Source: Galerina marginata (taxonomy: Eukaryota; Basidiomycota; Agaricomycetes; Agaricales; Galerinaceae). Taken from it: DNA of 64,000 nt. The position numbers were made by a program, and so were the translations under genes. The notes below the pieces were generated by a model, which was given only the letters and a program-made list of their open reading frames with translations, had not been told where the DNA came from and did no database searches. How positions within the stretch are numbered: position 1 is the stretch's first letter; each line of letters begins with the position of its first letter. Of this stretch, positions 22,790 to 44,031 are shown one piece after another. The stretch spans positions 1,984,001 to 2,048,000 of the forward strand of contig JAECYW010000013.1 in NCBI GenBank assembly GCA_023014335.1, written 5' to 3'.

Positions 22790-25700
22790 TTACAAATTAA
22801 AATCTAGTCCAATATTTTCCAAGTTATCAGCTAACTCCGCATCTTCAACATATTCATCTTCATCTGTTTCGTATGTGTCCATTTCTACTTCATTCTCGTC
22901 ATCATCTATATTGTTTTCCAAAAAGCTTTCTGAGATCTCAAACTGGCGTGCTTCTTCCAACTCTTCCAATGTTGGACCCCATGACTCTTCAAGATCCTTT
23001 GGAATAATGCGAACTGCAGGCATCCAGTTTAAGCAAAGTCGCAGAAGCTGTTTCTTTCGTTCTCCAAGTTGATATACCAAATCTGGGTCATCTGAGGACC
23101 ATGACAAGGCATTGACAACAACAACCCATTCTTCTTTCATCCATTGTTGCATTGAAATCTTCTCCTCTATCAATCTTCGTTCTTCTTCAACACATCGATC
23201 AAACTCCAATAAAGATTTTATTCCTTTTCGAATGTTATCATTTCCCAACCATTCCGGAATCAATAATCCATCATCATTGTCATCTGTCAGTCCAATGTCC
23301 TGCCAAATATCATCATCCACATCCAATTTAAATAACCCCTCAAGCTCAATCGCGGGAGGTGCAATAGCTCCTCTTGGAGCTTTTCCCAATGCAATCATTT
23401 TTGACATTTCAATGCAAAGTTTATTGTAGTTCCGAGCAAGAGTTTGAATTCCAGGTTCTTTTCTTTTTAATTGCTGTTCAGTGTGCTTTTGCAACTTGGC
23501 ATGGTTTACAGTTGACCGATAAGCCCGTTCAATATTCTCTAGCTCAAATTTTCTGTGTCGTAAACGATCACGTATCCGTTGTTTCAGAGCCAAAGCATTC
23601 ATCCGAGTTTTTAAAAACTCATTTCCCATCAACTTTGATAAATTCTGTCTGCCATCAATTGACAATTTTGCTCTTTTGTTTGCAATAGCCTTTTGAGCTT
23701 TTTTCAACTTTGTAGCCAGCTCTTCCAGATCTTCTTGAATAGTCATAGTATCCAGTCCTTCATCATAATTTCCTGATTCCAGCATAGCTTCAAAGTCTGC
23801 TGCCTGAGCTTTATAAGAGTCCACATTTTTTGAAAGAGCCAATATCTCTTCAATTTCCTTATTTGCAAGAGATTTAGATTGCTTTTTCAGAGGTTTTGTT
23901 TGCTCTGTTATTTGTTTATTCCATTCCTGTCGAAGAATATCTTCATTGGTTCCCATTGCATAGACTTGTTCCAGAACTTCCTTGGCATCACTTTTCCTTA
24001 ATGATGTTGCAATCCATTTACGCTTTAACCAGCCTCCTAAGCCCAACATTGATTTTTCATCCAGGTGTTTAACTTGGGTATCAATAGTGTAGATACGATT
24101 GTAGTAGCCAGACACCCGACATGAAGGAATTAATGACTTGATCATGCTCCAGAACCTTTCACAACCCTCACCATCTGTCAGGCCAAAACCTTGACATTTA
24201 CGGGGATGATAGATTAACTGGCAAGGCCATTGGTGCCCATATGCATGAAAAACAGAGATTCCAAAGACAATGCGGTCCAAAAACTCAGCGAGAAACTGAT
24301 ATTTTTCACAGCTGCGGTGTAGCTGACATCCAATGTCATAGAGTACACCTATCCGCATGTTTGCAGGAATATGTTCAAAGAGCTTTTGTAATAGGGACAG
24401 TGCATAATGCTGCTTTTCGCCAGCAGATGTCATATTGACAAGCCACAGCACACGATCATGGCGGCACAGCATCGCCATTAAACCAGTATCCGCAAAAAAA
24501 AGAGTGCTTGCTTTCATGCGTTTCTCATCAGCCGCAACAAAAGAGTCGTTACAGCCATCCAATACACTTGTAGGTATCCGCATCCCAGGTTCGTAGTCAT
24601 CAGTGGGTTTAGCTTGATTTGAAGGCATAGTCTGATGACCTTGATTTGCAGGCACTTTCTTAGGCTTTTTACCTTTAGTGCTTGGACGCACATCTTCAAC
24701 TTCTGCTTCCATATTGTCGACATCTTCTTTGGAAACAAATACAGTATCAGGGTGAGTGCGGGGTGCGGTCCATGCCTTGCTATCTGACTTGCGACGCTTT
24801 TGGGTAAAGCAAGCATCAATACAGACAATAGCATCCACACTAGGTGATATTGTTATTATTGTTGCAGACAAATTTAAGTAAAGCTTACATTTCGTCCTTC
24901 TTACACCAATTTTCTCCACCAAAACAGAGAGGACATCTCTCACGAAGATAATTGCTTGGTCGATCACCTTCAATTGGAATATTATGATCCACACTTGCTG
25001 ATGGACTTGACATTTCAACATCAGGCAGGTGTTGCGGTTGATAGGAAATATCTAAAGTATCAAGTTAAAAAAATCTAATTCCAATAATCACACCATACTA
25101 ACCATTCATTTCAGTGTCATCCTCATCATCCATTGATAGAACTGCCCCGCGTACTTGGTCCAGGTAATTTCGCAACATTACATTCTTTGTGTCAGTTAAT
25201 GTCGCATACCAGTGGAGTGCAGTCCCAAAACGACCCCGCAAACTGTTCTGAAACCAAATTAGACCTCAAAGAAGAATGACTGAAAGTCTAAAACTTACTC
25301 GGGTCTTGAGTTTGAAGTTGCGAGCACTGAGGAAACCCTCTAAAGTTTCACACCATGCTGTTGTGTTTGGAGCCGCATTTACGAAGAGGCCCTGCGCAAA
25401 TTCCAAGACATTCAAATCAACTGCCAAAGAAGGCTCCAATGGAGCACATGGAAACAATCCACGAGACAAAAGCTGAAGAGCAGGCTCTGTACAGGTACAC
25501 AGTGTAATTTTCTTAAGCCCTTAAAACAGATCAACCATGTCAGAATTATATAAGCAGTCAAAGTATGAAACTTACGTTCAAAATAAACACATGAAACTTC
25601 CAACAATCGGCCATCACTACAGCCTGTACATCCTCTCTCTTCCCGCACATCCTCCATATCTCGCAACCCAGAAGTCTCCCTCAGAAGTTGCATGTAAGGC

Positions 25701-26044
25701 TTTAATAACTGAGGGATAATGTCCTCACTCCACTTCCTCCACTGCCGTTTCTTCTTTCCAGCCCGCTTGGCAGCATCATCATCAGTATCTGGGCCATCAA
25801 AGCCATCCTCATCCTCATAACCCAAAGGAACATCACCAATGTCCTTCTCAATAGTACTACCCTGACCGAGCACTTGCGAGAATGATCCAGTTGGAGCATA
25901 AACACGGCCTTGAGCACCCACTATAGCATGTGGTAGGCCATAAGGGCGACGTCCGAGAGGAACACTCTCCAAAGGAACCAAGCCCTGAATAGAGGCGACC
26001 CCCTCAGGCTTCCTATTACGAGTCTGCCGGAAAGCATTAGGCAT
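22790..26044 (-). CDS. KDZ (Kyakuja-Dileera-Zisupton) family transposase with N-terminal CxC cysteine cluster
   Basis: Catalyses movement of the giant transposon. My model has five exons (26044-25576, 25519-25299, 25247-25103, 25051-24889, 24839-22790) with GT-AG introns and 3048 nt in total, giving 1015 aa without a stop. The N-terminus is an acidic linker, then cysteine motifs near residues 138-153 (CTGC...SC) and 162-165 (LCTC), the CxC-type cluster known in fungal KDZ proteins. A CPLC motif follows near 313 (RCPLCFGGENWC). The catalytic core shows VCIDACF (D~341), FFADTG (D~450), YDIGCQLHRS (D~501) and the signature YHPRKCQGFGLTDGEGCERF (about 543-562) with its acidic residue. The C-terminal 400 residues are helical and charged, ending in an acidic tail. 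No disabling change was seen, so it may be active. It lies on the minus strand about 1.6 kb from the left end, 299 bp downstream of the stop of the 705-aa gene. Confidence 0.9.
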
Positions 26045-26343
26045 GGCAAAAGAGTAAGGCAGTCAAGTCAGACAGTCAAGGAGAAGAAGGGAAGGAAGGG
26101 AAAGAAAGGTAGAACATAAATTACCGCATCCTTTATCTGACTTGTGACAGACACACGCCAAGAACATGCGACCAAGGATATAATTAAAACGAGGGTGACC
26201 GGCCACACAGCCGATCACCATTACATGCGGTAAACGATATAAATAACAAAAAAAAGCTGCCGAACGATGTCAGTTACACTGTCAAATATCTTAGAAAAGA
26301 CTCACTCTGCAAGAAGTTTCCCCGATGTCAAGACACCAACCCA

Positions 26344-29300
26344 TCAAGGCCTCGGAAGCGGACGGGGAAGCGACGGCGCCCTTCGAAAGTAACGGAAGAA
26401 AGTGTTGCAGTAGAACGGGAAGGCCACACGCTCAACTGCAACTACACTATCTTCCGAAAACTCTTTGTACCGACCCGAATCCTCCAAGTAGACCGACATC
26501 GACTTTAGACGCCTCACTTCCGGTTCATCTGGCCATGTCGAGAGGAGACGCCGAAATGCCTCAACGTACTCCACACGAGACTCCCACTGAGCTGCACCAA
26601 GTCCTTCATCACTCTTCGGAAGATCCATTTGAAGGTATGTGTTGTACGGTAAGCAGTCGCGAACCATCGAATCGCGAAGGGCAACTTTTATCTCAATCCA
26701 ATGGTGGCGGGGTAAGATGCATTGGTCGAGGGCTGACAACTCTAGACGAAAGTTGTTCTCGTACAAATCCCAGACGACCTCTTGAACCAAGGTTGTCGAG
26801 AAAGAGACCTTGCACCCCGGGAGATCCACTGCCGAAGCCACCTTCTCACCAGCCCAAAATACATCTCTTGGGCCAGTGATGGCCGACAGATCCATGGCAA
26901 AAACGTCAGTTTTCTTGAGTCGTTTCGCCGGGCGCTGAACGTCGGAGGCAGGAGTTCATATGCCCAGCGAAACGGCAACCTTGTCTGTCAGGAAATATTT
27001 CCAATCCGCGGGATTCGGAAGGGTTCGATCGGTCTCCTTTTGTTGGGTGGTGCGCATGAGCCATGCCTTCCGAAGTACCAACCAACAGACCAAATAGATT
27101 GACCTTCGATCTGTGGTGTTCAACAGAATTTGCGGGTCCATGGTGTGATACCCGTGCAGGAGGTCCTGCTCCGCGTGCTCTTTGATCAATGCTGGATTGG
27201 TATCCACCGAAGTAAGTGCCTTGGCCCAAGAGGCGTTCAGAGGCGTAAGGTAAGGGGACGAGATGATTTTAAATTTGTCCCTGTTGACATTGACATGCGA
27301 AGATGGGCCCGCGACAAGGAGTGACGCTGGAATTGGTGCCTGCACCATCTGACGAGAGAGACGAGCATTGGGCTGATAAGGGCCTGGAAAGAAGTCAAAA
27401 CTCAGGAAATGTTACAGTTTAAACAAGAACACTATACCTGATGGTGCTGGCCCGACATTGGGCCCTGGCATGTAGCTGCTGTGCTTATGCCCCAAGGTAA
27501 TCGTCCTGAACCCTGCCATTTGACATGCACGATTACGATCGGCACAAGCATCCCGAGTGCAAACGGGGTCCAAAGACATGTCCTCCTTGACGAGATCCTC
27601 CGGAATCGATGGCGGACATTCAAAACCGATTTTGATCGACCTTGGGATCTGCGACGCTGGGCGCAGCACCCAAACCTCGACCCCCAGGTGGAAAAGGCGG
27701 GTTGCGACTTCGTTGATGTTGAAAACAATCGCGCCCATCACAGATTTGTCGACGGGCCGAGGAGATTCTCCAAGTAACCTTCCCATCGGCTTCCAAATGG
27801 TGAAGTACTCGAAGCAAGCCAGTGTTTCCAAAAAATACCGTTGAAAGGTCGTGAAAGTGAGAAGGCTTTGGTCGAAGGTGAGGGGGGCGAAAGTAAGGAC
27901 GACCGACGAGAAAAGCATTCCGTTGGCGCAGTAGCAGAGATCATCGATCTCTTTTTCAGGATGTTTTCCCTCCGCGACCAGGGCCTCGACTTGCTTCTTC
28001 AGCCCTTTCCGTAGCGCGACGCACTCCATCACCAAATCCTGCCTGATCCGCCCAAAGTCCCGAAGCATTGATCCGTCCTCCTGCACGAAATCCGATCGCT
28101 TCAAATCGTACCACACGAGCCGGTATTGATGATCCTTGAGGTCTTCGGCGGCGGGCTTTCGTCGTACATATGGGAAGTACCAGGACACCTGTGGTGACTA
28201 CATTTATGTATCACCTACTGGCAGTTGCCTGATCCACCGATATGGAATTTCCGGGAGTTTGCCTGGCTACCATTTTAGGTAGGGCCTCAGAAAAAAGCCT
28301 GTAGGGTGCCGGAAATGCCGGGGGTAGGTTGGGGATGTCTCTCGGAAGGCGGGTAGGGTGTTTTAGATGCCGAAAATTCCAGGGAATGGGGCGGGATATG
28401 GCTAGAAAAGCGCAGGGGGGCGGGGATGTACAAACAATGCACAAACAATGCACCATTTTGATCCTGGGGTGCTATTTTGGCTCCTGTGCGGGATGTGGGT
28501 CAATTCGCGGCGCCAAAATTTGTGCAGTAGGTTGGAATATATTATCTACACCCTATTCACCCTTTAGCGCGCGTCAAACGAAGTGGGAATGGGTGGATTA
28601 GAGAATGAGCATCTGGATGACGCTCTATTTTTAGTTCACGAATATTCCGAAAGCGGATTTTAGCCCCGGAATGCTTTGATGGGCTTGTTTTTGCTCTCCC
28701 GTTGCTCTCCCGTTACTCTCCCCTCTGATTACAGTATTTAGTTCTGTTCCCTTCAAGAATGCGAAGCCAATGATACAAGAATCATCCCTTAAAGCCAGCT
28801 GGAAGTTGAGAAATGACTTCTCAAACATCCAGATGACATCCACACCCTCGGATTCTGGTTTGTTTTGCTGTTCATACCCCCCACCTCAATTATATAGAGA
28901 AACAATGAGATATATATTGATTAATACAGGATACAAGTACTCTACAGACCAACCCAATGAAGAAGAGAACAAAAAGAGAAAAAAATAGCAAAAGAACGGC
29001 GTAAACAATGAGGTCTCGCGCCTAGCGCCCCTCGTATTTGTCACCCAAACCATCCAGTGGGCTCGCGCAGTCCATCCATAGGCAACAGAGTCCGACCGGA
29101 CTCATCAGCCGGTGTAGCGAGAGGCGATGGGTGACGTGCGAGAGGTGTTGTGGCTGGCTCATCATCGCCTCCAGCAACAACGGACATGTAGGGGGATGAA
29201 GCGTTGGCGGGGCTTTCGTACTGGCAAGGGGAGGCAGTGCAAGCTGGTGTTGGCGCGATTCGCCTGGGCGAGACGCGAGACGCTACGAGGTGCCACTGGC

Positions 29301-32300
29301 AAGCACGAGCGACAGCTAAGGCAACATAGGTGATGGTGCGCGAGAGCTGTCGCAGCTGGATCGTCGCCGACACCTGTGATAAGGGAACGAGAGGCGGTGG
29401 GCGAGCTGGTGGTGGTGTGATTCGGTTGATTTGACACGAGAGGCGACGGAGCCGCCGTAGGCGAATGCGAGCTACCTGAAGTTCGAAAGGTACACTTGAA
29501 GTCAATGGACGGCACGCGAACGGTGGTCTAAGAGAGGGGGCAGTGAACATACCTCGAAACTTAAATCCACGCCTTCCCCACCAAGCCATTGCTTCCCATG
29601 TGTCGTCGCCCACGTGTAACATGGACGGCGAGCTGGGAGACGTGAGGCAGCTGATGGGAGACGGCTGGGTAGAATGCCAAAAATGCGAACGCCGCCACGG
29701 GGACGGCGTTCGTGTTTGTTTCGTCGATTCGGCTCGCGGGGGTGAGGCGCGTCGGCTTGCAGGCTTAGCGGTCGGAGCTGTGGCGCCGGTGGGCACTGGG
29801 GAGCGGCGTAGGCAGGGCTATGCGCACATTCGCCTAGGTTACGATGAGGAGGGAGTGAGATGTCAGTGAATAGGTGGCGACAGACTCGATTCGCCACGTA
29901 CCAGCCGGGTCTCCCTCTTCAAGGGCCTCCCCTTATGCGCTCCGGCCTTTCAGTTCCTTCTAAGTCCTTCAGGGGAGCGGCGCACGAAATCAGATCATGT
30001 CGTTTTGAAGCGGTGCGGCACCGTTCGGCGGGTCTTGTAAACAGTGTATAGGTAGGAACCTATTTAGATATAAAGCTATCAGTACAATCAAATTATGCAA
30101 ATGAGAACTTACTTGTTAAGATTCTGGGGCACGGAAGAGCAGGGGTGAAGGGAGAGGTGAGGAGATGGTTGTTGAGAACAGAGGTCACACGGTTTGAGTT
30201 GGTTGATCTCACCGTGAGCTGAGGTTGAACTTAGCGGACCGTGCAATCCGGCGACTGCGCGCATCGACGCCGACGACGTTGGAGAAGGCGGTTGTATAGA
30301 ATTAACTGGGAGAGTTGTTTGAATGAACATTCTAAGTAGTACTACCGACTACGTATCAGTAAATAAAATATATAAGCCTCGTAATAACGGTAATAGTATT
30401 TGAGAGGTGATTTCGGTATAGGCATCTTATATTTCGCAGGTCATACCTCACGGATTGAATCGAATATTCCAATAAAAAATACATTTCGAAGAGCACCTAA
30501 TGTATATGCTTTGAAGTAGATACCTCGGGCGATATTCGAAGAACATTTTTTCATTACCATCGATATTCACCGTCCAACTACTTGATTGATCCACACCTTA
30601 AGATGTTCTCAAGGTATCATCCTGTATATTCCTTCAAACTCGTGTATTAAATTTATAAACATATCTCAAACAATTAAATTATTGTACTACTACCCCCCTT
30701 ACCCTTCCAGTTGGTCTATTCCGTGAATGACTAGCTCATCATTGAGCGTATTCAGTGGCCATGGCCTGTCTTTTAAATATAATACATTGTATTTACCTTA
30801 TTAGGGCCTGTAAGCTGGGAATAGTAGATTATGAAACGTTAGTAACACATTCCGTTGATAATAAAGACCTCACCTTTGCTGGGGATGGCCTCGGGAGGGT
30901 TGCAAACCTCGAGAGCGGATCGGAAACTGGTCGGTCCGGGCTTCCGAGCCAATCGGGTGGGTCGCGGAAACGGCCGTGGACCCCATCAACAACGTTTCAG
31001 ACGTCGTTGGTCTGTCCTTAACCACCACAACGCCTCTCCTTTGTCTGTCCCAACCCCGAATGGTGCAATAAACCTGGTAAGTCAGTGTTTATGCTTATAT
31101 ATACCATGTTTCTGACATTCAGGCTGTAGTTATGGACTATCTACATCTTGACAGCATCGGTTTACCGTCGCGCGCCCCTCCCTTTCTCCAGGATGTGGGC
31201 CGACTCAGGAGGGATCTCGGCGGGAATTGAAGGGCTAGGATATGCAAGGGGAGGCCCTGGAAGAGGGAGACCCGGCTAGTACGTGCCAATCGAGTCGTAT
31301 GACTCGATTTGTTTCCCTTGTCAACCCGTCCGCTCATCCGCTCATCCCTTCAAACTGTGCAAAGTGGACGCGGACGATAATCGACGTCGTGTCGTTTTCC
31401 CATCGAGTAGCTTCCAGCCCGACCCCCGCCGGCTTCTCTGCCTCAACAACATGATCACCGAGGCTCATCGTTTCAACAACGGCGACGCGACATGAACTAA
31501 GGAGCCGGGCGAAGACGTCGTCCATTTGCGACGACGTTCGTGTCATTGCCGCCCTATCAACCGCCACCCAGCACCATCGTCGGCGCCAGTCCACCTCGAC
31601 ATCCTCCAACATCCTCCGGCACCTGCACCAACATTCCGACCACTGGTTCAGTCTGTTTCAAGAACGACGACGCGACGTCTCCGATCTCCATCCCTTATCC
31701 ATCTCCTGACGTCTCCCTGCTCGTGCTCCATGTCACTCGTGGGGCTCGATTCACGGAAGACGACGACTTCGATAGCACAAGTGGGCAGTCGAACCCGAGG
31801 ACTTCCTTCCCTCACCTCCACCTTCCAGTGCACGTTCGCCTTAATTGGTGTCGTATGTTGGAGAGCGAGAGAATGCGGACACTGTCATCGCCACAGTGTT
31901 CGTGTTCATTTCGGACTGTATCCGTCGCCGTCGACCATATCGCGCCATCATGCGCTCGCCCAGCCCCACCGACGTTCTTCGAATGATCGTCTGCGGTGAC
32001 GCCGACTCATCGTCGGGCCCTGTGTAAGTGCCAAATCCCTATGGATAGTGGGCTGCGTGAGCCCACTCGATGGTTGGGGTACCACATGACGGCGTTCGTA
32101 TCACCTCGCATCATCTCTCATCCCTCCTTTCCTGTCCACTCTTTCGTTTATTAGGCCCCTCAGTAGAGTACTGGTGTCTTTTAGCATATTAAAAATACAT
32201 ATTGTTCTTTTGCTACCAAATTGAAGTCAGAGGCACGAACAGTAAAAGAAACCAGAATATGAGGTGTAGATCTCATCAGGACATTTCAAAGAAGTCATTT

Positions 32301-33405
32301 CCCTGCTTCCAGGCAGGTTCAGGAACTAAAATTGGTACCATTTTGTTCGCATTTTTGAGGAGAATACAGTCATATATTTTATTTAAAGGGGACAGCAAAA
32401 GCAGAGAAACGGGGGAGTAAAAACGAGCCCATCAAAGCATTCCGGGGCTAAAATCCGCTTTCGGAATATTCGTGAACTAAAAATAGAGCGTCATCCAGAT
32501 GCTCATTCTCTAATCCACCCATTCCCACTTCGTTTGACGCGCGCTAAAGGGTGAATAGGGTGTAGATAATATATTCCAACCTACTGCACAAATTTTGGCG
32601 CCGCGAATTGACCCACATCCCGCACAGGAGCCAAAATAGCACCCCAGGATCAAAATGGTGCATTGTTTGTGCATTGTTTGTACATCCCCGCCCCCCTGCG
32701 CTTTTCTAGCCATATCCCGCCCCATTCCCTGGAATTTTCGGCATCTAAAACACCCTACCCGCCTTCCGAGAGACATCCCCAACCTACCCCCGGCATTTCC
32801 GGCACCCTACAGGCTTTTTTCTGAGGCCCTACCTAAAATGGTAGCCAGGCAAACTCCCGGAAATTCCATATCGGTGGATCAGGCAACTGCCACTAGTTGA
32901 TATAGAAATGTAGCAACCATGGCTGACCAGGAGCCCTCGAAATACAACTGAGGAAAGCGCGAGAAATCGGCGGTGTAGAACGTCCCATCCCGACGAGCGC
33001 GTACCTCGCGCTCATCTTGCTCGATGTCGGGAATCCAGTCGGCATTCGGGGATGTGATAACAAGGGTCCTCGGTATGTCGTGTCCACGCGAATCCACACC
33101 GACCACGCCATACTCCAGCCCGGGGACTTTGTAGTGCAGTCGTCCAATCTCTGCAATGACATGTCCGTCGAGCACCTGGAATTCAGCTACAATAAGTTCA
33201 ATAGTTAGATGCTATGTCATCGTGTAGAGACAATGAACAACGTACGAGTTTCGGTCCCAATGCTCGATTCAAAGATGGGCAATTTGGAGGCGGCATATCG
33301 TTTCCTTCCAAAACAGTCGTCGTATATCGCTGAAATTTGCGTTGACAATGTAAGGCGAGAGACCGTGCATGAAGACCAAGACTTACCGGGACCCGACTTC
33401 GACAT
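26344..33405 (-). CDS. Cargo gene of the giant transposon: 705-aa protein of unknown family
   Basis: I do not recognise the family. Six exons splice in phase: 33405-33387, 33329-33246, 33186-32918, 28188-27438, 27383-26980 and 26934-26344, total 2118 nt (705 aa). Intron 3 (32917-28189) is 4.7 kb because a long-TIR element sits in it; the splice ATG|GTG is still in phase (...FEGSWSAM|VSWYFPYVRRKP). The other introns are 45-59 nt. The protein starts MSKSGPAIYDDCFGRKRYAA and has no membrane segment or signal peptide. It is rich in aromatic residues around residues 125-300 (for example YFLETLACFEYFTIWKPMGR). There is a short run CTRDACADRNRACQ near 330, and a basic stretch RPAKRLKK near 510. The long unbroken frame over six exons indicates selection or recent activity. 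It is transcribed in the same direction as the transposase and away from the AT-hook gene. Confidence 0.75.
28200..28920 (+). repeat. Long terminal repeat unit, copy 3 (forward)
   Basis: Shares GGTGCCGGAAATGCCGGGGG, the run of GTACAAACAATG words and AGAATGAGCATC(T/C)GGATGA with the other copies. It is nearly identical to the reverse of 32195-32905 over the outer 450 bp and more diverged inward. Confidence 0.8.
28921..32194. other. Interior of long-TIR element II; no supported gene
   Basis: 29040-29900 and 31150-32030 are GC-rich with overlapping open frames on both strands (up to 251 codons) and no motif. 30050-30850 is AT-rich. Two copies of a block also found in element I occur at 29885-29990 and (inverted) 31190-31330. 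The element may be a non-autonomous carrier of captured genomic DNA (inference). Confidence 0.35.
32195..32905 (-). repeat. Long terminal repeat unit, copy 4 (reverse)
   Basis: Reverse-oriented partner of 28200-28920, ending outward with GGCAACTGCCACTAGTTGAT. Confidence 0.8.
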
Positions 33406-33554
33406 AGCAACGGTCTTGAAGGTGAGCTGAGATCCAGAGACGCAAGGGCAATTAGCAAGTGTGGTCCACAAAGGCCGAGACGATGTGGTCGCAGAGACGG
33501 TACCGGCGCCAAACAGCGAGCGCGAATGCTGACACCTTAGCAGTGAGCAAAACG

Positions 33555-33689
33555 ATACCCCGTTCGCTGAAACATCCAAACGTCCGGGGTACCAATCCAG
33601 TCTACCCAACACCGGAACATCCAGGTGTCAGGAACGAACAACCAGCGGAACATCCTGCTGGTTGGGTGAGCGAAACATTCTGCCCACCC
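33555..33689 (-). repeat. Hairpin cluster 1 (four covarying hairpins)
   Basis: Four hairpins about 30-45 bp apart, 150-285 bp upstream of the start of the 705-aa gene: 33555-33591, 33609-33628 (ACACC/GGTGT), 33640-33663 (AACCAGC/GCTGGTT) and 33664-33689 (GGGTGAGC/GCCCACCC, one mismatch). The tips read GGAACATCC(A/T) or GAAACATTCT on the plus strand. On the minus (sense) strand that is W-GGA-TGT-TCC or W-GAA-TGT-TTC. The first hairpin is the least regular. Confidence 0.75.
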
Positions 33690-34539
33690 TGGAAGACGCA
33701 GAGGAGGTATTGGGGGTGAACTCACCGCTGCAAGGTGAGGGTGAGGAGGACAGAATGAGATCGAAAATGGGGCACTCACGGTGGGCAGGGAAACGCGAAG
33801 AGGGTTATTCTTGCAGGTCGTAGTGAGATAACGATGTTGACGAAGGAGGTGAAGGTGAAGAGGAGGGAGGAAACGATGGAAGTGGAAGTGGAAGTGAAAG
33901 TGGTTGAAGTCCGCCCAAGTCCGCCTGTGGGAAGATTGTTTTGTTGACTAGTCACGAGCGGATAGGATAAGATAACGATAAGATAACGATTAGATTAGAT
34001 GACCTTATCGAGGTCTTACATTCATCAGAGGCGTCCGTCGTTGTTATGAGTTGAGTAGTGTAGTGGTGTATCGTGTCTCGTTCAGTAATTATATCACTTA
34101 AATCGGCGTTCGAACCCGCAAGGTTGTAAATTTTTAATAGTTTTGTCCATTTTTAATTTTTGGTGAAGCTGTAGACACTCAAGTACGATCTCTTCCGAGC
34201 ATAATGGATCGGAATCAGGTAATCAGAACCAGTGTTTATAGTTTTAGTTAGATTGAATAACAAGAAACTTATATTACACCAGCAGCTACACTAATCAAAG
34301 AAACCTACAGGGAAGGGGATGGCTACCAGCTACATTCATCAAAAAGGACGCGGTGGGGGAGAGGGGGGGAGTACGTCGATCGAAGGGACCCGATGAGAGG
34401 GCAACCGTCAGCTAAAGTACACCCGAGAGGTAGATTAAGAGAAGTCAGAGGTAGGACGGGGGGAAAGACGAATACGAACATACCTCCATAGAACCCCTCC
34501 ATGTCAAACGGCATCACCCAAACGCCTTACCGCTCAGCA

Positions 34540-35430
34540 CCAGCGTCTGAAAACCTTCAAGGACGAGCCTCGAGGCTTTGTCAAGCGAGCCGGCGAGTGA
34601 TCAATGCTCGGGCAGATTTTCACAACGGCGGTGAGGCGGGTTGCTGAGGTCCATGGTGCGCGATGCTTGAAGCTTCGTCAAGAGAGCGAGACAGCGATGG
34701 ATCGTCGAGTCGACGTTCGCGATGGCGCTGAAGCTCGCGACGGTGCTGGGCAGGACGGGTGGATGGGTTGACTGTGGACGAAGCATTCAGGCCACCACAT
34801 AACAATGAACAGCTGGAATAACAAGGTGAAAGCATTCAGCTCGGATGTGAAAGATAGGTAAAACACATACCGCTTAGTCCCCTGGTGCACCGTTGGCGGT
34901 GTACGACACAACGGAAGAACTCAATCGGCCTTGAAGTCGTTGATATTTGAAGTTTCGAGATGAGAGCCAGCGAGTGCTGATGCTCGAGCTCGGGCTTCAC
35001 GATGGGGGTGAGGCGTGGAGGTCTGAGCTCTTGAGAGGTCGGTGTTGCGGTCCTGGTGTTGGCGTTTGAAACTTCGTGAAGAGGGCGGTCGGACTGGCTG
35101 GATTTCCGGGTGAAAGGGCGTTTGAAACTTCGTGAACAGGGCGGTCGGACTGGCTGGGTTTCCCGGTGAAAGGACGAGCGTGGATGAAGGCAGCATGGGA
35201 GTGCTAATGCTCGGGTGTCGGATGGTCGAGGTGAGAGAGAGGGGGTGAGTTTGTAAGTTTGCAGCTGAAAGGGAGCGAGCGTGTCTGGATGTTCGAACTC
35301 TGGGCTCACGACGGAGGTGAGGCGCACGAAAGAGGTGAGACGAGGGATCGAGCTCCCAAACGGACGGTCCTGGTGTTGATATTTGAAACTGCGTAAAGAG
35401 GGCGACCGAGTGCTGGATGAAAGCCAAGGC
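34540..35430 (-). repeat. Degenerate tandem repeats in the spacer between cargo genes
   Basis: Blocks built on TTTGAAACTTCGTGAA and GCGGTCGGACTGGCTGG recur, the clearest pair 64 bp apart at about 35065-35180, with weaker relatives near 34560, 34670, 34940 and 35380. Open minus-strand frames of ~190-200 codons across the region are repetitive, Ser/Pro/Arg-rich and overlap in two phases, so they are not called as genes. Confidence 0.5.
34774..34845 (-). repeat. Hairpin cluster 2 (one clear, one degenerate hairpin)
   Basis: 34774-34795 has the GTGGAC/GGCCAC stem (one mismatch) with tip GAAGCATTCA. A decayed relative with AAAGCATTCA lies near 34828-34845 and no longer has a matching lower stem. 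Confidence 0.55.
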
Positions 35431-35434
35431 AGAA

Positions 35435-35530
35435 ATGGGCGAAGCATTCAGCCCATCAAGAGATATGAATGCAGGAACCAAGCGAAGCATTCTGCTTGGG
35501 AGTCCAGTGTGAGCGAAACATTCAGTTCAC
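35435..35530 (-). repeat. Hairpin cluster 3 (three covarying hairpins)
   Basis: 35435-35456 (ATGGGC/GCCCAT, perfect), 35478-35499 (CCAAGC/GCTTGG, perfect) and 35509-35530 (GTGAGC/GTTCAC, one G-T pair). Tips are GAAGCATTC(A/T) or GAAACATTCA. On the minus strand each reads W-GAA-TGY-TTC. No enclosing stem was found. Confidence 0.8.
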
Positions 35531-35769
35531 AAAGGTGGGGGGAGATAAGATAACCGGCGTTTCTAAGTCGGAGTTCAGACCTACGTGACTGGTTCGGAGT
35601 TCGAAATCAGGTTCCTAGGTCGGACTTTGGACTTGGGAAAATCGGGAGAGACCCGACTCTTGCCTCCCACCGAGTTGCCCCCCGCCGCCTCTCATCCCCA
35701 CACCGACTCGGGGACCATCCGCTTTCCATCGGCGCTCCGATGGATCCACACCTCCCGCCACGACATTTT

Positions 35770-35883
35770 GGAAGGATTTCTTGGGCTGGAGGTTCTGCCC
35801 ACAATCGGTCTCATCTGAAGGTTTCGCTGAGATTCGGTTCACCATTGGGCAGAAGGTTTCGCCCAGTGGTCTCGATATCCTCC
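35770..35883 (+). repeat. Hairpin cluster 4 (three hairpins within an outer stem)
   Basis: 35782-35801 (TGGGC/GCCCA), 35809-35832 (TCTCATC/GCTGAGA, one G-T pair) and 35842-35869 (CCATTGGGC/GCCCAGTGG, 9 bp with one G-T pair). Tips are (A/T)GAAGGTTTC or TGGAGGTTCT, now on the plus strand. GGAAGGATTTC (35770-35780) can pair with GATATCCTCC (35874-35883), enclosing all three as a cloverleaf. Confidence 0.8.
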
Positions 35884-36806
35884 ATACGCGGAACGCGTCG
35901 AACGTCATTTATTGCCCGCCGGCTGCTCCATCAACTTACAACTGGCACCTCTCTCCAACACCTCCGTCTTTCCCTGACCCGATGGAATTTACGGTAAGCC
36001 AAGTTCAAACGGCGCCACGTCGATCGGTTCTGACGCCCAATATCGCAGATCGAATCTCGTATCGTGTTGGCGACTTGGTAGCTATCTGCATAACCTCCGG
36101 GAGTTTCTGTTCATCACGGTATGTGCGCAGTTACGATGTTCGGGTGACACAAGCGACACTGGGCTCACCAACGCTGCTAGGTGGTTCCTACTCTACGCGT
36201 TTCTGCGTTCCTACCCGCGTTGTTTCTGGAATATGGTTGAGGTCTTGACCGTCAAGACTTGGTCAAGCTATTCATCCGGTCAAGACATTCATCCGGATTG
36301 ATAGTGGTCTTTGCAGGTATCCCAACATTTTTTCTATTCAGAGTCCCATCACTTAAGTTATCTCCAAAACGAAATAGCTCCGTCTTCGCTAATGGGCGCC
36401 GCCTCAGGTTGTGTTGGACGAAGCTGAGGCTACCAACCGAACCTCCCTCGTGCTCGTGTGTCTGCGCGGTGCTCACCCTTCTCGAAAACTGAAAGGAAGA
36501 AAAGACTACAACATTTGTTTGTTGTCCACACCTCAAGCCGATGAATATCAACCTCCCCTTGGTTAGCTTTCGGAGATGCTCGTTACGAAGGCGGAGTCTC
36601 AGAGGACCCTTCGGCAAATAATGTATGTATTTACTGTGCAGTTTCAACCGATTTTTTTGATCGTTTATGATATCTCCAGATTTCTATGGGTCAGGGCTTC
36701 CGATGGGGTCCTCAGGTTCGACGGCGGCTGTTTTTTTGGCCAACTATAAAGTATCTGGAGGTAGGAAAACACCTTCCCTCCCTCTTTCTTTCTTTCGTAC
36801 TTACAC
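35884..36806. other. Spacer upstream of the AT-hook gene; no supported gene
   Basis: Several donor/acceptor-like sites (GTAAGC near 35993, ATCGCAG near 36044, GTATGT near 36119) suggest spliced 5' untranslated exons of the AT-hook gene or a decayed gene, but no in-frame chain could be built. Confidence 0.3.
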
Positions 36807-39800
36807 ATGCCTTCAAAGCGCAAGGCCAACGACGGCCCTTCCAAAAACAACAAAAAGCTCAAGGCTACCAACGTATGCTCTCCTGCATCCCATCTAACAT
36901 GTTTCATTAAATTTCTATTTAGGTCGAGTCTGGCGACGGAAACGACGCCGACAATTCGGAGCCGGTCCCGGTCCCAGTCCCGGTCAAGGTTAGTGTTCCT
37001 CTATTGTCTTTTCAAAAGCCTGACGGATTTATACTTGACTCACAGAAAAGGCGCGGTCGTCCTCGCAAAGTCCAACAATCACGGTATGTCAAGGCTCACC
37101 ATTTAACTCCTACGTGGCACTTGTACGAGCAGAATGCTTCGCTCGTGACGGGACAACGTGCAGAAGGTTTCGCACACGTCTTCTCCTACTGCCACCTGAA
37201 TGTTTCGCTGGCTGAAGGCCGTCGCTCGTTGCCACGTAGACATTATCTTCCATACTAATGTATTATGTAGGTCTAGTCCCCCAGCACCAGAACCTGCTCA
37301 GAATGAGGGTCAAGGGTGAGAATTACCTGCTGAGCCACCGAAACTAGGTACTTAAATTTTTTTAGTGGAGGAATAGCACGCCGTTCGAATGCGAATTCCG
37401 ACTCTGCCACACTGGTTCCTGCGCAACCTATGTAAGTATCCTACAAACTCAATCTCTCCGTCTTACTAACCAGTATTTCAGGGCCGCGTCTGCCATAGTG
37501 CCAGCTGCACCGAACAATCTGGCATATGTCTCGATACCGCAGCGAATGACTCGTGGGGCCGAGAAAAGACTACAGGAAAAGTTGACGGCGGCTGCCCTTC
37601 TTCCGAAGCCTCGCAAACCTTCGCCGGGATTTCAGGCGTCCCGCCCCTACGATTCCGATGACGGTTTCAACTTGTACAAGAACAAGAAATACCGGCGTGC
37701 ATACGACAAACGTAAACGACTCGAGGCTGTAGACGCAATCGCTGAGGCAGATGACGAGGCAGAGAAGTCCAACGACGATGCAGAGGGGGAAGGTGGGGGG
37801 GATATGGATGTGGATAACGGTGCTGCTGAGGCCCCTGTCCCAGTCGATGACCTCGCAGTGTCCCATTTGCCAGGTGTTGGTATTAAGGATCTGTTCTCCG
37901 ACAACAACAACAACGACAACACCAACGAGAGGAGGGAGATGGAAACAGAGGACCAGGACCAACCGGAGCCTCAGAAAGCCAAGTCCTCGAAGTGGGGTGG
38001 GTCCAAATTCACCCAGGACCTCCTAAAGAAGGCTCGCCTGGCCGCCCGCGATGCCGAAACGCCAATCGAATCCGATTTGAGTGGAAGTGATTATGCTGCT
38101 GGTCGGAAACCCTTGGAAGATGACGAGGACGAGGACGACGACCTTGCACAAGATGTGGTGCCCTCCAGCCCGACTCCACATGCCCGCACGCAAAGGAAAA
38201 ACGCGAAAGGGAAAGCCGTCCGCAACTCAGGAGTGGACTCCGACGAGACTCCGGTCAACCAGCCCCGCCAAGATAAAGGAAAGGGCAAAGCGGTCGAGGT
38301 CGATGAAGATGACCCCTCGTCGAGTGACTCGGAGGCCCAACACGCACGGCCTGGTCGCCCACCGAACGCATTAGTCGCAAAATCACGGTGTGTGAGCCGA
38401 GCATTTGCAAACAAGGTCTCAGCCATGGCGCTTGAACACAACACGGCCCCGCAAGGTGTCTACGGGAGTATGGAGTATCAGGTTCTGGGGAAACGGTCTG
38501 GAAACCTGTGGAACTACTTCCAGCAAGTTCTTGCTCTTACCAACCCACCACCAGTCGGCGAGGGCAACATTGCGGAACGACGTAAGTAACTTCTTAATAT
38601 TTTTGATTCCTTTCTGATCTGGTTAACAAACAGGGGCTGCCTGGAACCGCCACGCTCGCGAGTTATATCGCGCCCGCACGGACCCTGCATTGACCACAAA
38701 GGAAGAACGAGAGGCCTTTGCCTCTGAGATAGCCGCCAAGCTTGACGAGCTGGCATTGCAGGAGGATAACCTGCGCCCTGCTGGTACACGGATGAATGGA
38801 ATGATTCGCGATTTGCAGCGTGCGGTAAGTCTTTTATTTCTCCCTCTAGTTCAGCATGACTAAATTACTTCCAGCTCACGACGGCCTGTCGTTTCAACCC
38901 CGATATGGCGGCTTTTGCTATCGTCATCCACACTGGAACAGACCAGGTCGGTCGTCAGATCTCCGGGATCATCACTGGGTCGGAGGAAGGCCAGGCAGTA
39001 CTGGATGAGAACAAGATTCTTGTTCAGCCAGTGGTCGACATCGTCGCCGACATATTTAGGTATTTATTAAGGTCTTTCTGTGTAGTTGACTTGATGTTAA
39101 TGTGTTGATTCTCTGATCAGAGGGAGAACCTCCAGGGCTAAAGCCACGCAGGCTGTCAAAAGGCTTAATGAACAGCGCGGCGAGTTTGGGGCTGGCTCTT
39201 TAGAAGAGGCGGCTGTTATCGTCGAAACAGGCAGGAATGCTCCGAGGGGCCACAATTTAGATCAAAGCGAGGGCGAAGGCGAGGACGAGGACAACTTGGA
39301 TGAGGAGGATGACAACATGAATCCCCTCGGAAAAAAAGAAATGACTCGGCGTCAAGCTAAGGCAGCTGCTAAGCGTCTTTCCAAAAAGGATTCAAAGACC
39401 AATGAAGCAAATGAGATGAGGAGCCGTGCCACCGCTCTTCTCTTCCAACAGCTATGTATGTCTATTTAATTATTCCTTATAGCTTTTATTAACTTTATAT
39501 GTAATTAGATGAGATCTGGCCAGAGGCCAGTGACCGACAGAACTTCCCTTGGAGGGACTTCCTCAAGTATGCTATTCTGCATAATTTCCGAATCCGCGGT
39601 TGGCCAGAAGGTGTCCCCTTTCCTGATGCTTCTTTCAAGGCTGAAAAATTCCGCGGTGCACACTGGAAGGAGATCCTTGAGGCTATCGAGGCCGCCAGGC
39701 TTTCGATCGAAAGATGGAGTAAAGGTAAAGTGTTCTATTGTGCTTTTATACTTTGTTTGCTAACTTCTCTTATTTTAGAGGAACGGCAGCTTGCTGAAGA

Positions 39801-40746
39801 CTCTGCAAATTATCAGGAACTTAGCCTGGTCATCACGTTAACCGGTCGATCTCTCTTGCAGGTCAAAGATCGTAAGGGCAACAAAGGAAAGAAGCCTGCC
39901 CAGCCTGCCCAGTCTGCCCCATTGCTTAGGGCTCAAGAGAGGTTCTCCACTGCCACTCGTGTTGCCACCACTGTCCCTGCCACCGCACCACCTCCTGCCA
40001 CTGCCCCTACCAATGTTGGGGCTGTATCACATGTCCGCTTCAACGAGGACACGATTGTTCACAACCATCAACCATCCCGCACCTTCTTCCGTGATCCTAC
40101 TCCTCACCCTTTTCAACACCTTGACGTTGAGGATGATGTTACTCCTCCCCGGTCTCTGCATCCTAATAACAGTGACTTTGATTTGGAGGAAACAAAGCTT
40201 CAACGGGCTCTCAAAGACCTCCAAGCTCGCCGGGCTGCTGGTTTGGACAAGCCCTCTGCTGGGGATGGTTACTACAAGCCTTACCAGATCATTGGGGATG
40301 GTGAATATCCTGAAGTGAGGGTTGTTGATGATCACCGCCGGCCTGCTGAGTTGGGGAACGATATCCCAATTCCCTATCGGGGTGAAATGGGCCGCTCAGC
40401 CTATCGATCTCTTGGTGTACCTGCTCAGTCTCGTGTTGTCTCTTCAGAGGCTTTCTATCGCCAACTTCCTCACTCTAACCAGCCCCAATCCTCGCATCGC
40501 CTCCCACCTCACCATCCTGCAGTACGGGTCCAACCTGCCTCCCTTCCGACTGGGCCTGTAACCCATGTGCCTTCCAGACATCCTCGTGAACCTGTGGCTC
40601 AATCGTCAAGACCAGCTGGTCATCGTTTACCCTCGCATGCTCAATCTCAGTCAGAAGCTGCTCAGTTCAATCCCAACTATTATATGGCTAGAGGATTGCG
40701 GGATGGTCAGGCAGGTCCTAGCAATGAGGTCTTCCGTTCTGACTAA
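36807..40746 (+). CDS. Cargo gene of the giant transposon: 1091-aa protein with an AT-hook
   Basis: Eleven exons splice in phase: 36807-36872, 36923-36988, 37046-37083, 37271-37315, 37366-37431, 37482-38581, 38634-38824, 38875-39059, 39121-39455, 39509-39724 and 39779-40746; total 3276 nt. Residues 45-53 are KRRGRPRKV, a canonical AT-hook that binds the minor groove of AT-rich DNA, so a nuclear DNA-binding role is likely. It is preceded by a Val-Pro run (EPVPVPVPVK) and followed by long acidic/Ser-rich disordered parts (residues about 210-420). A central, better folded-looking part follows (NLWNYFQQVLALTNPPPVGE, later YEIWPEASDRQNFPWRDFLK). The last exon is Pro/His/Arg-rich and disordered. 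I do not recognise the conserved part. Intron 3 (37084-37270, 187 nt) is the longest, the others being 49-60 nt, and holds a hairpin cloverleaf. AT-rich subterminal arrays of the same transposon are possible targets (inference). Confidence 0.8.
37110..37239 (+). repeat. Hairpin cluster 5 in intron 3 of the AT-hook gene (cloverleaf)
   Basis: Three hairpins: 37125-37146 (ACGAGC/GCTCGT, perfect), 37156-37179 (ACGTGC/GCACACGT with a 2-nt bulge) and 37191-37212 (GCCACC/GCTGGC, one mismatch). Tips are AGAATGCTTC, AGAAGGTTTC and TGAATGTTTC. A perfect 10-bp outer stem CTACGTGGCA (37110-37119) / TGCCACGTAG (37230-37239) encloses them. The whole structure lies inside a GT-AG intron, so it is non-coding. 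Confidence 0.85.
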
Positions 40747-40904
40747 GTCATTCTGTGGTTTGTGTTGATAACCTGGTTTGGCAGCTACTCATGTGTCCAT
40801 ATTTGCTTTTTGCCTTGTATATAGTGTCATTGGTCTCTTGATTTTCTTAGTAGTATGTTCCTCTGATTGTGGTGTTTTCTATTTTACTCTGTATTTGCTA
40901 CTTG

Positions 40905-41085
40905 CTTTGGTCTTGTGTAGACTGTCCTGTCTTTTCTCCCTTTGGTCTATTTTAGACTGTCCTGTCTTTTTTCCCTTTGGTCTATTTTAGACTGTCCTGT
41001 CATTTTTCCCTTTGGTCTATGTTAGACTTTTCTGTCCTTTCTCCCTTTGGTCTATTTTAGACTGTCCTGTCTTTTCTCTTTTTGA
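40905..41085 (+). repeat. 41-bp tandem repeat, about four copies
   Basis: The unit TAGACTGTCCTGTC followed by TTTTCTCCCTTTGGTCTATT recurs just downstream of the AT-hook gene stop, with small differences. It probably lies in its 3' flank. Confidence 0.75.
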
Positions 41086-41384
41086 CTAACTGCCCAGTCA
41101 CTTCACTCTTTGGATTACTTGGGACTATCCTGTTGCTATGGTTGAGATTTGGGAGCCTGTTATCCTGCCTTTATCCATGTATCAGCCAATTAGAATAGTT
41201 CTCTACTGTGATGTATGATTGGGAAAAAATATTTTTCTGCCTAAATGTAGCTTTTCAAAGCTTTATATGCCTGTTCTCCTGCTCTAATGTTCTTTTAAGA
41301 ATGAAAAATGGCATTGGAATATTCAAGGGCTATATATCTTTATGTGACTGGCACTAAGACATGCATTGAGGTAAACTTTATGGA

Positions 41385-41815
41385 CTAGCCAGGAATATAT
41401 ATTCTCAAGTCTAAATATATGTCTGTGAGTTGGAAACATATTTTAAGGTAGAAACATATATAAGAGCCTCTGGAATATATATTTGACGGTCTTTATTACA
41501 TGTTCTATGTCACAAATATATATCTGTGAACCATTAAAATATGTTTTATGCTACAAATATATGTCTGTAGTGAGTGAAATATATTCTAAATGAGAAAATA
41601 TATATTATGGCCTTTGGGATATATGTTGGTATGTTTGAATATATGTTTCCAGCAGGAAAATATGTCTGTAAATATATTATAAGGCCCTTTATATATATTT
41701 CATAGACAGAACATATTATTGCACTGGGTAACATATGTTCTAAGTTGGAAACATATGTTTTGCAAACAATTAATATATGTTTGAAAGTGGATAATATATA
41801 TGTCAGTAGCTTATC
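41385..41815. repeat. Right subterminal AT-rich repeats
   Basis: More than ten units of 25-31 bp with cores such as GAATATATATT or AAACATATNTT, the counterpart of the left array at 22455-22760. The region between here and the right TIR has no gene. Confidence 0.65.
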
Positions 41816-41878
41816 TTTTTGACAAAAAATATGCCAGACAAAGTATGGTGCATATTTGACACAAAGAAACAGATGGAC

Positions 41879-43197
41879 AGGGCTTTGGCCTCAGCTATGA
41901 ACTATGCCTAGCCTAATGACATGCCCCAATTTATGGTTGGGAGACCAGAAGGTCAGCACCTTACCCTAAGGCGTATTTCAGAAGTGAACAACTTAGGAGT
42001 CTGTTTGGTATCCATTTCTCAGTTTGAATATAAATATGAATATAGATTTGATGGGAGCTGATTTAGTCCGAGGATTCCCACAAGGCCAAATTGAGAAAAC
42101 TCTGACAGGTTTAGGCACTGACAGTCCCTGATCATACTGCCGACGCCCGCTCTGCTTCCTGCCTCTCATCCCGCCTCATCCCGCTCTCGTGAATAGTATA
42201 CAATAGCTATACAACAAGAGTAAATTAAAGCCACAAATAATCTTGATTATACATTTATAACCCAATTGTGATTAAGCGCCAACTTACAGGTGGGGAATGG
42301 CGTTAAAAACAAGCTCACCGCTGCACACGATGAGCTCAACCGTCAGAGAAGATGTACCAGAATTTGACGTGGCATGGGAGATTGATGGATCAAACCCAAT
42401 TCAGGCCTGTGGGAATGATGCAGATGCCATCATATTCATATTCATATTCATATTTGCCCGAATAATGGATACCGAACAGACTCTTAGAGATATAAGAATG
42501 ATGAGATGCAGAGGTTATACAGGTGGATAAACTAATATTCAGACTGATTCTCTAAGACGTAATTACAAGTCCTTAAATATAAGAGCAGAGTTGTCCCTGA
42601 CTCCACAACTCCGAAACTCAGGAAGACCTCAGTAAGATATACTGTGGAAAGGAGCCTTGGGATCTAATCCTTACCAACATGAAGATAACATGAGGACGAG
42701 AGTGGAAAAAATAAATTGTTCTGAGGTGAGTAACAGAAGTTGTTCATCCAATTTCCATCTGGAATGTCAAAAATGTTAGAAACAAAAAGTTGGAACAATG
42801 GGGCTTAGAACTGACATTCCGAGACTCCAAGATTCTGACGGAACGCAAAACACGGAACCAGACAGACAGGGCTTTGGCCTCAGCTATGAACTGTGCCTAG
42901 CTTAACAATGTGCCCCAATTTATGGTTTGGAGACCAAAAGGTGAGCACCTCGCCCTAAGGCATATCTCAGAAGTGAACAACTTAGATAAATTGAGAGCAA
43001 TGAGAAGTAAGGTTATGCAGGTGGATAAACTAATATTCAGACTGAAGATTTAAGGTGTAATTCTAAGTCTTTAAATATAAAAGCGAAGTTGTCCCCAACT
43101 CTGCAACTCTGCAACTCAGGAAGACCATGGTAAGATATAGTACAGAAAGAAGCCTTGGGACCGGAGCCTTACCAAGATGAGGTTAACATGAGGATTG
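41879..43197. repeat. ~330-bp direct duplication in the right arm of the giant transposon
   Basis: Copy 1 is 41879-41995 plus 42484-42695 (split by a MITE); copy 2 is 42868-43197. Shared landmarks are GGGCTTTGGCCTCAGCTATG, GTGGATAAACTAATATTCAG and AACTCAGGAAGACC. No coding content. Sequence from 43198 to the right TIR is unremarkable. Confidence 0.8.
41996..42483. mobile_element. PIF/Harbinger-like (Tourist-like) MITE, 488 bp
   Basis: Inverted ends GAGTCTGTTTGGTATCCATT and AATGGATACCGAACAGACTC, flanked by TTA (41993-41995 and 42484-42486). The sister direct repeat at 42868-43197 has the unoccupied site (CAACTTAGATAAATTG), which confirms the insertion. The three-base TTA duplication and the G-rich TCTGTTTGG-type end match Tourist elements. 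Confidence 0.8.
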
Positions 43198-43513
43198 TGT
43201 GGGAAGGAATGAATGATTCCGAAAAGTAGAACAAAGAGTGTCCGTCTGCATTCCGGCCGGAATGAAGAACACTTTGGAACCAGAACCATAGAAGCGAAGG
43301 ACTTGGGATTGGATCATGACATTTCTCCAAGTTACTTCCATTTATATTCCATCTTAGGGTATTGTACTGACTAGAAAATTGCATAGATAACTCTTGCTAA
43401 TTAAGCACCTAGTTCAACCTCTGTGCCTGACCTGCTAATCCTTGTCATGGGTATGGGTTTTTGTAAAGTACAAAAATGCCTACCCATACCTGTACCCTGA
43501 CAAAACCCACACC

Positions 43514-44031
43514 CCAATGTGTGCAGGTTGCTGTACACATGACAATCTCTACTTTGTCAAAGTTAGCTTCTTGCAACACACTATCATTATACTATGGGAT
43601 TTAACACAAATGCATTTACAGTCGAGTAATAGTGCACAGAATTAGAATATTTAATTATACGCAAGTATTGATTAAATTTCCCCAATATTTCAATACAAGG
43701 GGTGTATATGACTATTATCTAGCTATAATGGTATTGTAGCAAGGCAGTAACTATTTTTGGGAGCCCCAGGGCAATTTTTTAACTTTAGGACCCCTGGCAC
43801 CTAATGTGACAATGAAAAATATGTTTGGGAAGCATAAATATGTTTATAACAGATATATATCTTATCTAAATATATATCATTACATTTGCATATTGATATA
43901 TATTTCCTTTCTAACACATGTTATGAAGTGAAAATATGTTCCCGGAACTTATATTTGGGCACCCTTTAGGTTGGGTATGCTATCAGGAATTAACCACCCT
44001 AAAGGGTACTATGTAGGGGTTCACTGAAGTG
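43514..44031 (-). repeat. Right terminal inverted repeat of the giant transposon
   Basis: Reverse-oriented partner of 21172-21680. The outermost base is followed directly by the target duplication TGGGCTG. Confidence 0.9.

Follow-up and report, generated by a model that had tools for sequence, protein, structure and literature searches.

Covarying hairpins with element-typical loops around the centre of KDZ transposons in Galerina marginata

The hairpins described here lie in a 64,000-nucleotide stretch of the genome of the agaric Galerina marginata (assembly GCA_023014335.1, contig JAECYW010000013.1, positions 1,984,001 to 2,048,000, or C5:1984001-2048000 in the shorthand used below), which is referred to throughout as the window. 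They are housed in a 22,860-bp DNA transposon of the KDZ (Kyakuja-Dileera-Zisupton) type at 21172..44031, a length that includes a nested insertion, and they belong to this transposon, as they are carried also by a second, diverged copy at about C6:1041326-1065707 and by eight further relatives. Within each hairpin the stem varies in sequence and keeps its pairing, the loop is largely typical of the element that carries it, and the arrays face outward from a single gap. The hairpins probably act as RNA, and most likely sit in the 5' leaders and 5' introns of two divergent predicted transcripts. Their best explanation, offered tentatively and with somewhat more doubt than belief, is that they are cis-acting RNA hairpins of the KDZ family, in which the loop would be read by an element-encoded protein as a self tag on nascent RNA. 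All element comparisons were made within this single genome (69.3 Mb in 43 contigs).

Pairing kept in stems of free sequence

A sequence-only reading of the window had listed fourteen clear hairpins and one decayed, all sharing the fixed tip W-GAA-TGY-TTC or close variants and always closed by a C-G pair. Its count was close, with the positions unchanged, in that twelve hairpins are clear, one is imperfect and two are decayed (Table 1); a search for the tip between 33000 and 38000, made without any condition on the stem, gives 13 matches, including the partly decayed one at 33569. The tip itself stands for the window, but in the relatives it is better described as a five-nucleotide loop closed by G-A/T-C, and the closing pair is C-G only usually, with T-A, T-G and C-A also occurring. 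The reported exchange between GAA/TTC and GGA/TCC is real, the pair concerned being A-U in 18 and G-C in 4 of 22 aligned hairpins.

These 22 rows, 13 from the window and nine from the C6 copy and partly picked by their pairing, were used to build a covariance model. Nine of the 11 pairs change on both sides, which bears out the view that the stems vary yet stay complementary, and standard pairs fill 86% of the pair cells. The covariation score is 0.536 against 0.206 for shuffled alignments, with none of 500 shuffles as high, and the signal is abolished when the partners are slid. Of the 13 window rows the model recovers all but one at E<=1.7e-5, although rows that were built in match by construction; the exception (33664-33689) is unlisted because it overlaps its neighbour by one base. 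In line with the earlier reading, which had seen no such hairpins outside this region of the window, the model gives one weak match elsewhere in the 64 kb (59986, E=0.81), and no hairpins of this type were found in the terminal repeats of the transposon. Across the genome the tip CWGAAKGYTTCG is not enriched (91 occurrences against 87 for the reversed control), its clusters falling at the two copies. None of the 4227 covariance models of Rfam scores in the window at the gathering scores, nor any in 33400-37400 at E<=1.

Comparison of the two copies, which are 89% identical in the left part of the hairpin region (to about 35.1 kb) and 74% identical over 35.3-37.3 kb, gives the same picture at the level of individual hairpins. 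Two-sided changes are found at 37154, where the closing C-G has become T-A, and at 35507, where G-C has become T-A; mismatches at 35507 and 37189 in one copy are paired in the other, and the stem is partly lost in the C6 copies of 33664 and 35433. Pairing has thus been kept while the sequence moved, with some decay.

Most of the bias that comes from choosing rows by pairing is avoided by two further counts. When hairpins are chosen by the tip alone there are 100 matches in the ten loci, 86 of them distinct once 14 duplicates are dropped, and at the inner six stem positions 410 of 516 cells hold Watson-Crick pairs, against 226 +/- 9 when the 3' arms are re-dealt (maximum 258 in 2000 re-dealings); the relatives' tip patterns were defined after their hairpins had been seen, so that stem selection is absent from this count only with respect to places bearing those tips. 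In the second count, of density, the ten element regions (36.4 kb) contain 70 instances of the combination of bulge, GA/TC, five-nucleotide loop and five or more of 6 stem pairs, whereas 40 dinucleotide shuffles give 1.7 +/- 1.2 and 246 kb of this genome outside these regions give 9. That background includes other parts of the window transposon and of its C6 copy, and 18 tip-holding loci, with loci overlapping hairpin regions excluded. If any two closing pairs are allowed the contrast is less distinct (98 in the elements, 153 in the background and 22.7 +/- 3.9 in shuffles), so that much of the specificity resides in the closing G-A/T-C. A chance origin is rejected on the counts of 70, 9 and 1.7 +/- 1.2. 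The covariation, the compensatory changes in C6, the excess over shuffles and background and the recurrence in relatives together support the earlier proposal that the stems covary and that an RNA or DNA structure is under selection.

Table 1. Features of the window element, with hairpins first (window positions)
Feature	Position	Strand	Remarks
Hairpin, partly decayed	33561..33586	-	Tip T GGA TGT TTC
Hairpin	33606..33631	-	T GGA TGT TCC
Hairpin, 8-bp stem CAACCAGC/GCTGGTTG	33639..33664	-	A GGA TGT TCC
Hairpin	33664..33689	-	A GAA TGT TTC
Hairpin, one mismatch	34772..34797	-	
Decayed hairpin, tip TGAATGCTTT retained, stem gone	34821..34846	-	Tip 34829-34838; stem loss read by eye
Hairpin ATGGGC/GCCCAT	35433..35458	-	
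Hairpin CCAAGC/GCTTGG	35476..35501	-	
Hairpin, one mismatch (paired in C6 copy)	35507..35532	-	One pair differs on both sides in C6
Hairpin, imperfect tip T GGA GGT TCT	35779..35804	+	GGA/TCC in C6 copy
Hairpin, one mismatch	35808..35833	+	
Hairpin, 10 pairs, one G-T	35843..35868	+	
Hairpin ACGAGC/GCTCGT	37123..37148	+	
Hairpin	37154..37179	+	Closing C-G is T-A in C6 copy (compensatory)
Hairpin, one mismatch (paired in C6 copy)	37189..37214	+	
Centre, bidirectional-promoter-like	35533..35778	.	Strand flip, pyrimidine-rich outward strands, TTATC
Predicted intron GTGAGT ... CTAAG ... CAG, four hairpins	33529..33725	-	Donor scan; acceptor read by eye
Predicted intron GTATGT ... ACTAATG ... TAG, three hairpins	37084..37270	+	Directly after KRRGRPRK exon
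Left terminal inverted repeat	21172..21536	+	365 nt
Right terminal inverted repeat	43667..44031	-	365 nt
KDZ transposase reading frame, 743 amino acids	22790..25021	-	Pfam PF18758, E 3.3e-65
'Left' accessory gene, exon, conserved, no family assigned	27412..28197	-	Genome matches, no Pfam match
Nested element, 642-nt inverted arms	28180..32931	.	Interrupts left gene region
'Right' gene, several exons	36807..40746	+	Begins MPSKRKAND; AT-hook-like KRRGRPRK

One frame and several loops

Eight relatives, whose transposases are 65-71% identical to that of the window, were compared over the stretch upstream of the left gene; they are denoted C1, C10a, C4, C39a, C23, C10b, C14 and C39b, and with C5 and C6 they make up the ten loci. 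Every locus holds at least one tip match. What is common to them is a frame that consists of a variable stem, a C-G pair, a bulged A or T, G-A, five loop bases, T-C and the returning stem. The window's covariance model finds five weak matches in C1 and C10a (E 0.0037 to 0.29), weak because the frame is kept but the loop differs.

The loops themselves, tabulated with a requirement for 3/4 stem pairs, are distributed by element. Thus, C5 and C6 display ATGYT/AGGTT, C1 displays ATACA, C4 both ATACA and CTACC, and C10a displays CTNCA with one CTACC besides; ATCYT is found in C23, with one instance in C1, CTTTG and its variants in C10b, and CATGT and its variants in C14, C39a and C39b, where some hairpins of C14 and C39 have a loop one base shorter. 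The resulting table is nearly, not fully, diagonal, with about six loop types over ten loci and between 0 and 6 other loops per locus. Genome-wide, tips of the relatives are enriched over the reversed control (210 vs 49, 49 vs 18 and 40 vs 11).

Blocks bearing hairpins are tandemly duplicated in C1, C4 and C23, so that the arrays grow. In the C1 element (L055 687-1352) the repeated block, of about 275 bp, comprises a predicted exon together with a hairpin-bearing intron, which indicates that hairpin arrays can grow together with introns. Two other places in the genome carry arrays of CTTTG tips. At C12:3423461-3424381 there are seven, spaced exactly as in the C10b element and with no listed KDZ or left-gene match nearby, and this is probably a truncated or non-autonomous copy of the C10b type. 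At C39:1058448-1059694 six such tips, all on the minus strand, lie next to a left-gene fragment and are perhaps one side of another C10b-type element.

Outward polarity, splice donors and the choice between RNA and DNA

In the window the strand of the hairpins flips once, between 35532 and 35779, and this arrangement is general. All 95 tip matches in the eight two-sided loci lie on the outward strand, minus to the left and plus to the right of one gap, for which the probability under independent random strands is about 10^-19.9, a figure that duplicates among the matches make less extreme in truth. C39a and C39b show one side only. Further copies (a second C1, two more C4 and an element at C10:309.7-311.6k) likewise have a single flip among the matches listed. 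The gap is widest in C14, at 787 bp, the other seven loci having gaps of 181-266 bp. C+T makes up 58-87% of the 60 nt that precede the first hairpin on either outward strand in all eight loci, and TTATC is present within the gap on one or other strand, neither feature being set against a control. The gap might on this basis resemble a bidirectional promoter, active towards both sides.

The hairpins fall in clusters, which were classed by hand and post hoc as proximal, middle or distal to the centre, the C39a entry being a hairpin outside the tip pattern. A strict splice donor is located 8-105 nt upstream of 14 of the 16 distal clusters (nearest at -44 to -80), against a control of 15%, and the two others have the donor-like GTACGT and GTTAGT; it detracts from this count that the 16 are not independent, as they include C5/C6 homologues and tandem copies in C1 and C39b. 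Middle clusters have a donor upstream in 3/6 cases and centre-proximal clusters in 1/16. The window's right-hand intron comes directly after the exon for KRRGRPRK, and in C10a, similarly, a frame for RRRGRPPK and a donor-like GTTAGT precede a hairpin cluster. Over the part that was compared the two right proteins agree at only about 30%, and that the clusters lie behind an RGRP-motif exon in both is a good sign that they are old and intronic.

It is the outward polarity and the placement behind donors that favour RNA over DNA. On the outward strand, stem pairs 1-4 include 22 G-U and 7 A-C combinations (13 vs 7 without C1), 18 hairpins having G-U only and 4 having A-C only. The expected bulge-and-loop form is the minimum-energy fold for 68 of the 86 22-mers, and the stretch 33523-33715 of the left intron region, folded as RNA, forms four hairpins with z -3.31.

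Could the hairpins nevertheless act as DNA? They would then be extruded at promoter opening or at replication, and the transposase or the right protein would bind them as a self mark. An AT-hook-like motif is present in the right protein, and AT-hooks bind DNA. RNA energies favour neither strand, and passages of PMC5735166 describe a comparable layout for VANC, in which arrays of an element-specific motif occupy the non-coding DNA that surrounds a promoter-like centre. However, a reader of double-stranded DNA would fix the sequence of the stem, which here is free, outward polarity and donor placement track transcription units, and such hairpins were not found in the terminal repeats. Action as DNA is thus considered unlikely.

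A second alternative dispenses with a dedicated reader and takes the hairpins as intron and leader architecture, compacting long leaders and introns to expose splice sites or the start codon. The position of the distal clusters behind a donor, and in C5 also ahead of a branch/acceptor-like site, is consistent with it, as is the four-hairpin fold of the left intron, but it leaves unexplained the invariant bulge, the G-A/T-C and loop frame, the uniformity of loops within most element families and their difference between them, and the centre-proximal hairpins with their near lack of donors. It is accordingly rated as improbable. More doubtful still is a mutational origin, whereby the tip was spread by tandem duplication and the stems made or repaired by template switching during replication, with no function at all. 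Template switching can create and maintain hairpins, as parts of PMC8794818 set out, and hairpin blocks are indeed duplicated in C1, C4 and C23. Yet functionless hairpins of this kind would be expected to lack any preference of strand or position, whereas polarity and donor association are both present, and the process does not predict a one-sided bulge or differing loops in the same frame. Hardly any weight is given to the idea that the hairpins serve translation or export, with a host protein binding them solely in the mature 5' leader, where the centre-proximal clusters may lie, since the distal clusters are in predicted introns and a single host protein would not need about six loop types in one genome.

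Other candidates were rejected: transposase-binding sites of the element ends, as the terminal repeats are without such hairpins; Dicer substrates, as stems of 4-10 pairs are too short; a palindromic double-stranded DNA site, as the stem sequence is free; and a known RNA family, as nothing in Rfam matches.

The carrier, a candidate reader and the proposed meaning of the arrays

The transposon that carries the hairpins is bounded by terminal inverted repeats that are 99% complementary to each other, with CA..TG termini and a 7-bp direct repeat, TGGGCTG, flanking both ends as the target duplication. Its transposase matches PF18758 with 220 bits against a cut-off of 26.6 and has 27 matches in the genome at E<=1e-40; as query in a sequence search of PDB it gave no match. 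The KDZ elements with TET/JBP genes in fungi that are treated in the available text of PMC12730594 belong to the transposase group of the window element, and two Laccaria Kyakuja families described there have CA..TG termini and a 7-bp target duplication as it does; those two families are without terminal inverted repeats, and with its 365-nt repeats the window element differs from them. Fungal KDZ accessory genes are thought to counter silencing (in the same text). No TET/JBP gene appeared in Pfam scans of the element, beyond which no search was aimed at such genes.

The nested element separates the left-gene exon from the hairpins. Its arms are 91% alike, and related arms are found at 15452-16046/19896-20490 and near 55.4-56.0 kb. 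Behind the right gene, 35-bp tandem repeats occupy 40870-41119 and are present in the C6 copy too, and at 59987-63955 the window contains a frame of 1322 amino acids in which a TPR-like unit of 135 bp, or 45 amino acids, is repeated about 22 times.

The order KDZ, left gene, centre and right gene is seen repeatedly among relatives. The left-gene exon has 29 matches in the genome, its own included, many of them adjoining KDZ matches, and the right gene has distant relatives over parts of 39505-40743 at the equivalent place in other KDZ elements. Identity to the window element drops from 59-71% for KDZ to 32-46% for the left-gene exon and 29-36% for the right-gene exon, the C6 and C10 copies of the right gene aside. 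In the exons compared the right gene is therefore the least conserved of the three; its protein is basic and AT-hook-like near its start, with the stretches KRRGRPRK in C5 and RRRGRPPK in C10a and no known domain. Pfam had no match to eight exon frames, those of the left and right genes included. A third copy of the right gene, 94-96% identical, lies at C10:118612-122210; it has no homology to the window upstream of 37653 within the 1.5 kb examined and appears to be without the known hairpin region.

How might such a system work as a cis-acting RNA tag? Two divergent gene sets, transposase with left gene on one side and the basic, AT-hook-like right protein on the other, would be arranged around a short promoter-like centre, and both transcripts would carry hairpin arrays in the 5' leader and 5' introns. 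Each hairpin would have a free stem displaying a bulged A/U, a G-C/A-U step and a family-typical five-nucleotide loop. An element protein could bind these loops on nascent RNA, at many sites together, and would so be held at its own promoter, where it might sustain transcription of both sides, whether by preventing silencing or premature termination or through an influence on splicing. Such a tag would be an RNA counterpart of the self-recognition of VANDAL/VANC. First candidate for the reader is the right gene, which in the exons compared shows the lowest conservation of the three and whose product is basic and AT-hook-like near its start; the left gene comes second. A single host reader would have to recognise about six loop types in one nucleus, and this diversity points instead to element-encoded readers. 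It is plausible, though rather less likely than not, that this amounts to a private RNA hairpin code, whereby each element group shows its own loop on both nascent transcripts and has it read by its own protein, so that an element recognises and protects only itself.

Several observations weigh against this account. Loops are not strictly private, in that ATACA is common to C1 and C4, one type is common to C14 and both C39 loci, and a C4-type loop occurs in C10a; C39a has a single tip match although similar hairpins are present there. Nine of the 22 G-U pairs come from C1 alone, and calculated RNA energy has no preference for the outward strand, which is the more stable in 34 and the less stable in 45 of 86 hairpins (p=0.35). 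The right intron, folded alone, adopts another minimum-energy fold in which its three hairpins are not formed (z -0.65). Transcription and introns are predictions, and a TATAA at 36745, which precedes the start codon (36807) by 62 bp, suggests that transcription of the right gene may begin downstream of the 35.8-kb hairpins. Pfam detects no recognisable RNA-binding domain in the element proteins, and single-sequence AlphaFold predictions are poor, with values of 50.3 and 38.0 for the predicted local distance difference test (pLDDT).

Known systems offer partial parallels to the proposed tag. In phage lambda a divergent promoter region gives rise to two transcripts, both of which carry a nut boxB hairpin in the sense direction; these RNA structures are small, their loop is short and specific, and related phages use different boxB loops, each read by its own N protein. 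The orientation of all 95 matches in the eight loci would be equivalent, if these regions are transcribed as predicted, and the KRRGRPRK/RRRGRPPK stretches of the right protein might correspond to the arginine-rich reader of such a system; unlike the arrays here, there is one boxB per nut site, in bacterial antitermination, with no bulged base and no introns. Iron-responsive elements and the operator hairpins of phage coat proteins also combine a fixed tip, a bulged base and a variable stem and are read by protein, but with other loop and bulge spacing, outside DNA transposons and without divergent arrays. Among transposons the nearest likeness is to the VANDAL elements of Arabidopsis and their anti-silencing proteins, VANC. 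Passages of PMC5735166 describe short motifs arrayed in the non-coding DNA of these transposons, both in introns and in upstream regions; the motifs differ between related elements, and the arrays change by tandem duplication; the hairpin arrays likewise grow in this way and have element-specific loops, nearly diagonal with some sharing. However, on that account the VANC motif is a fixed short DNA word, whereas here the stem is free, only its pairing is kept and the outward strand is used, in KDZ rather than VANDAL carriers and with a reader that is a candidate only. Hairpin arrays do not appear in the available text of PMC12730594, in which the terms 'hairpin' and 'stem-loop' have no occurrence, and more widely no such family is described in what is accessible of the open-licence literature on KDZ, transposon hairpins and transposon-encoded RNA-binding proteins (including PMC12730594 and PMC8216456). 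As far as Rfam and these searches go, the hairpin family is new.

Transposons need to be expressed although the cell silences them, and they need to act on their own copies. If the proposed tag is real, it would be, as far as known, the first example of DNA transposons in eukaryotes recognising themselves through RNA, and a eukaryotic counterpart of lambda N/nut. The hairpin frame provides a simple annotation signature for these KDZ elements and their centres, and sister elements with one frame and different loops in one genome constitute a natural experiment on the co-evolution of loop and reader. Should the reader be found, the elements would furnish a set of orthogonal pairs of RNA hairpin and protein that could serve as RNA tethers, and would make it possible to test whether DNA transposons escape silencing at the level of RNA.

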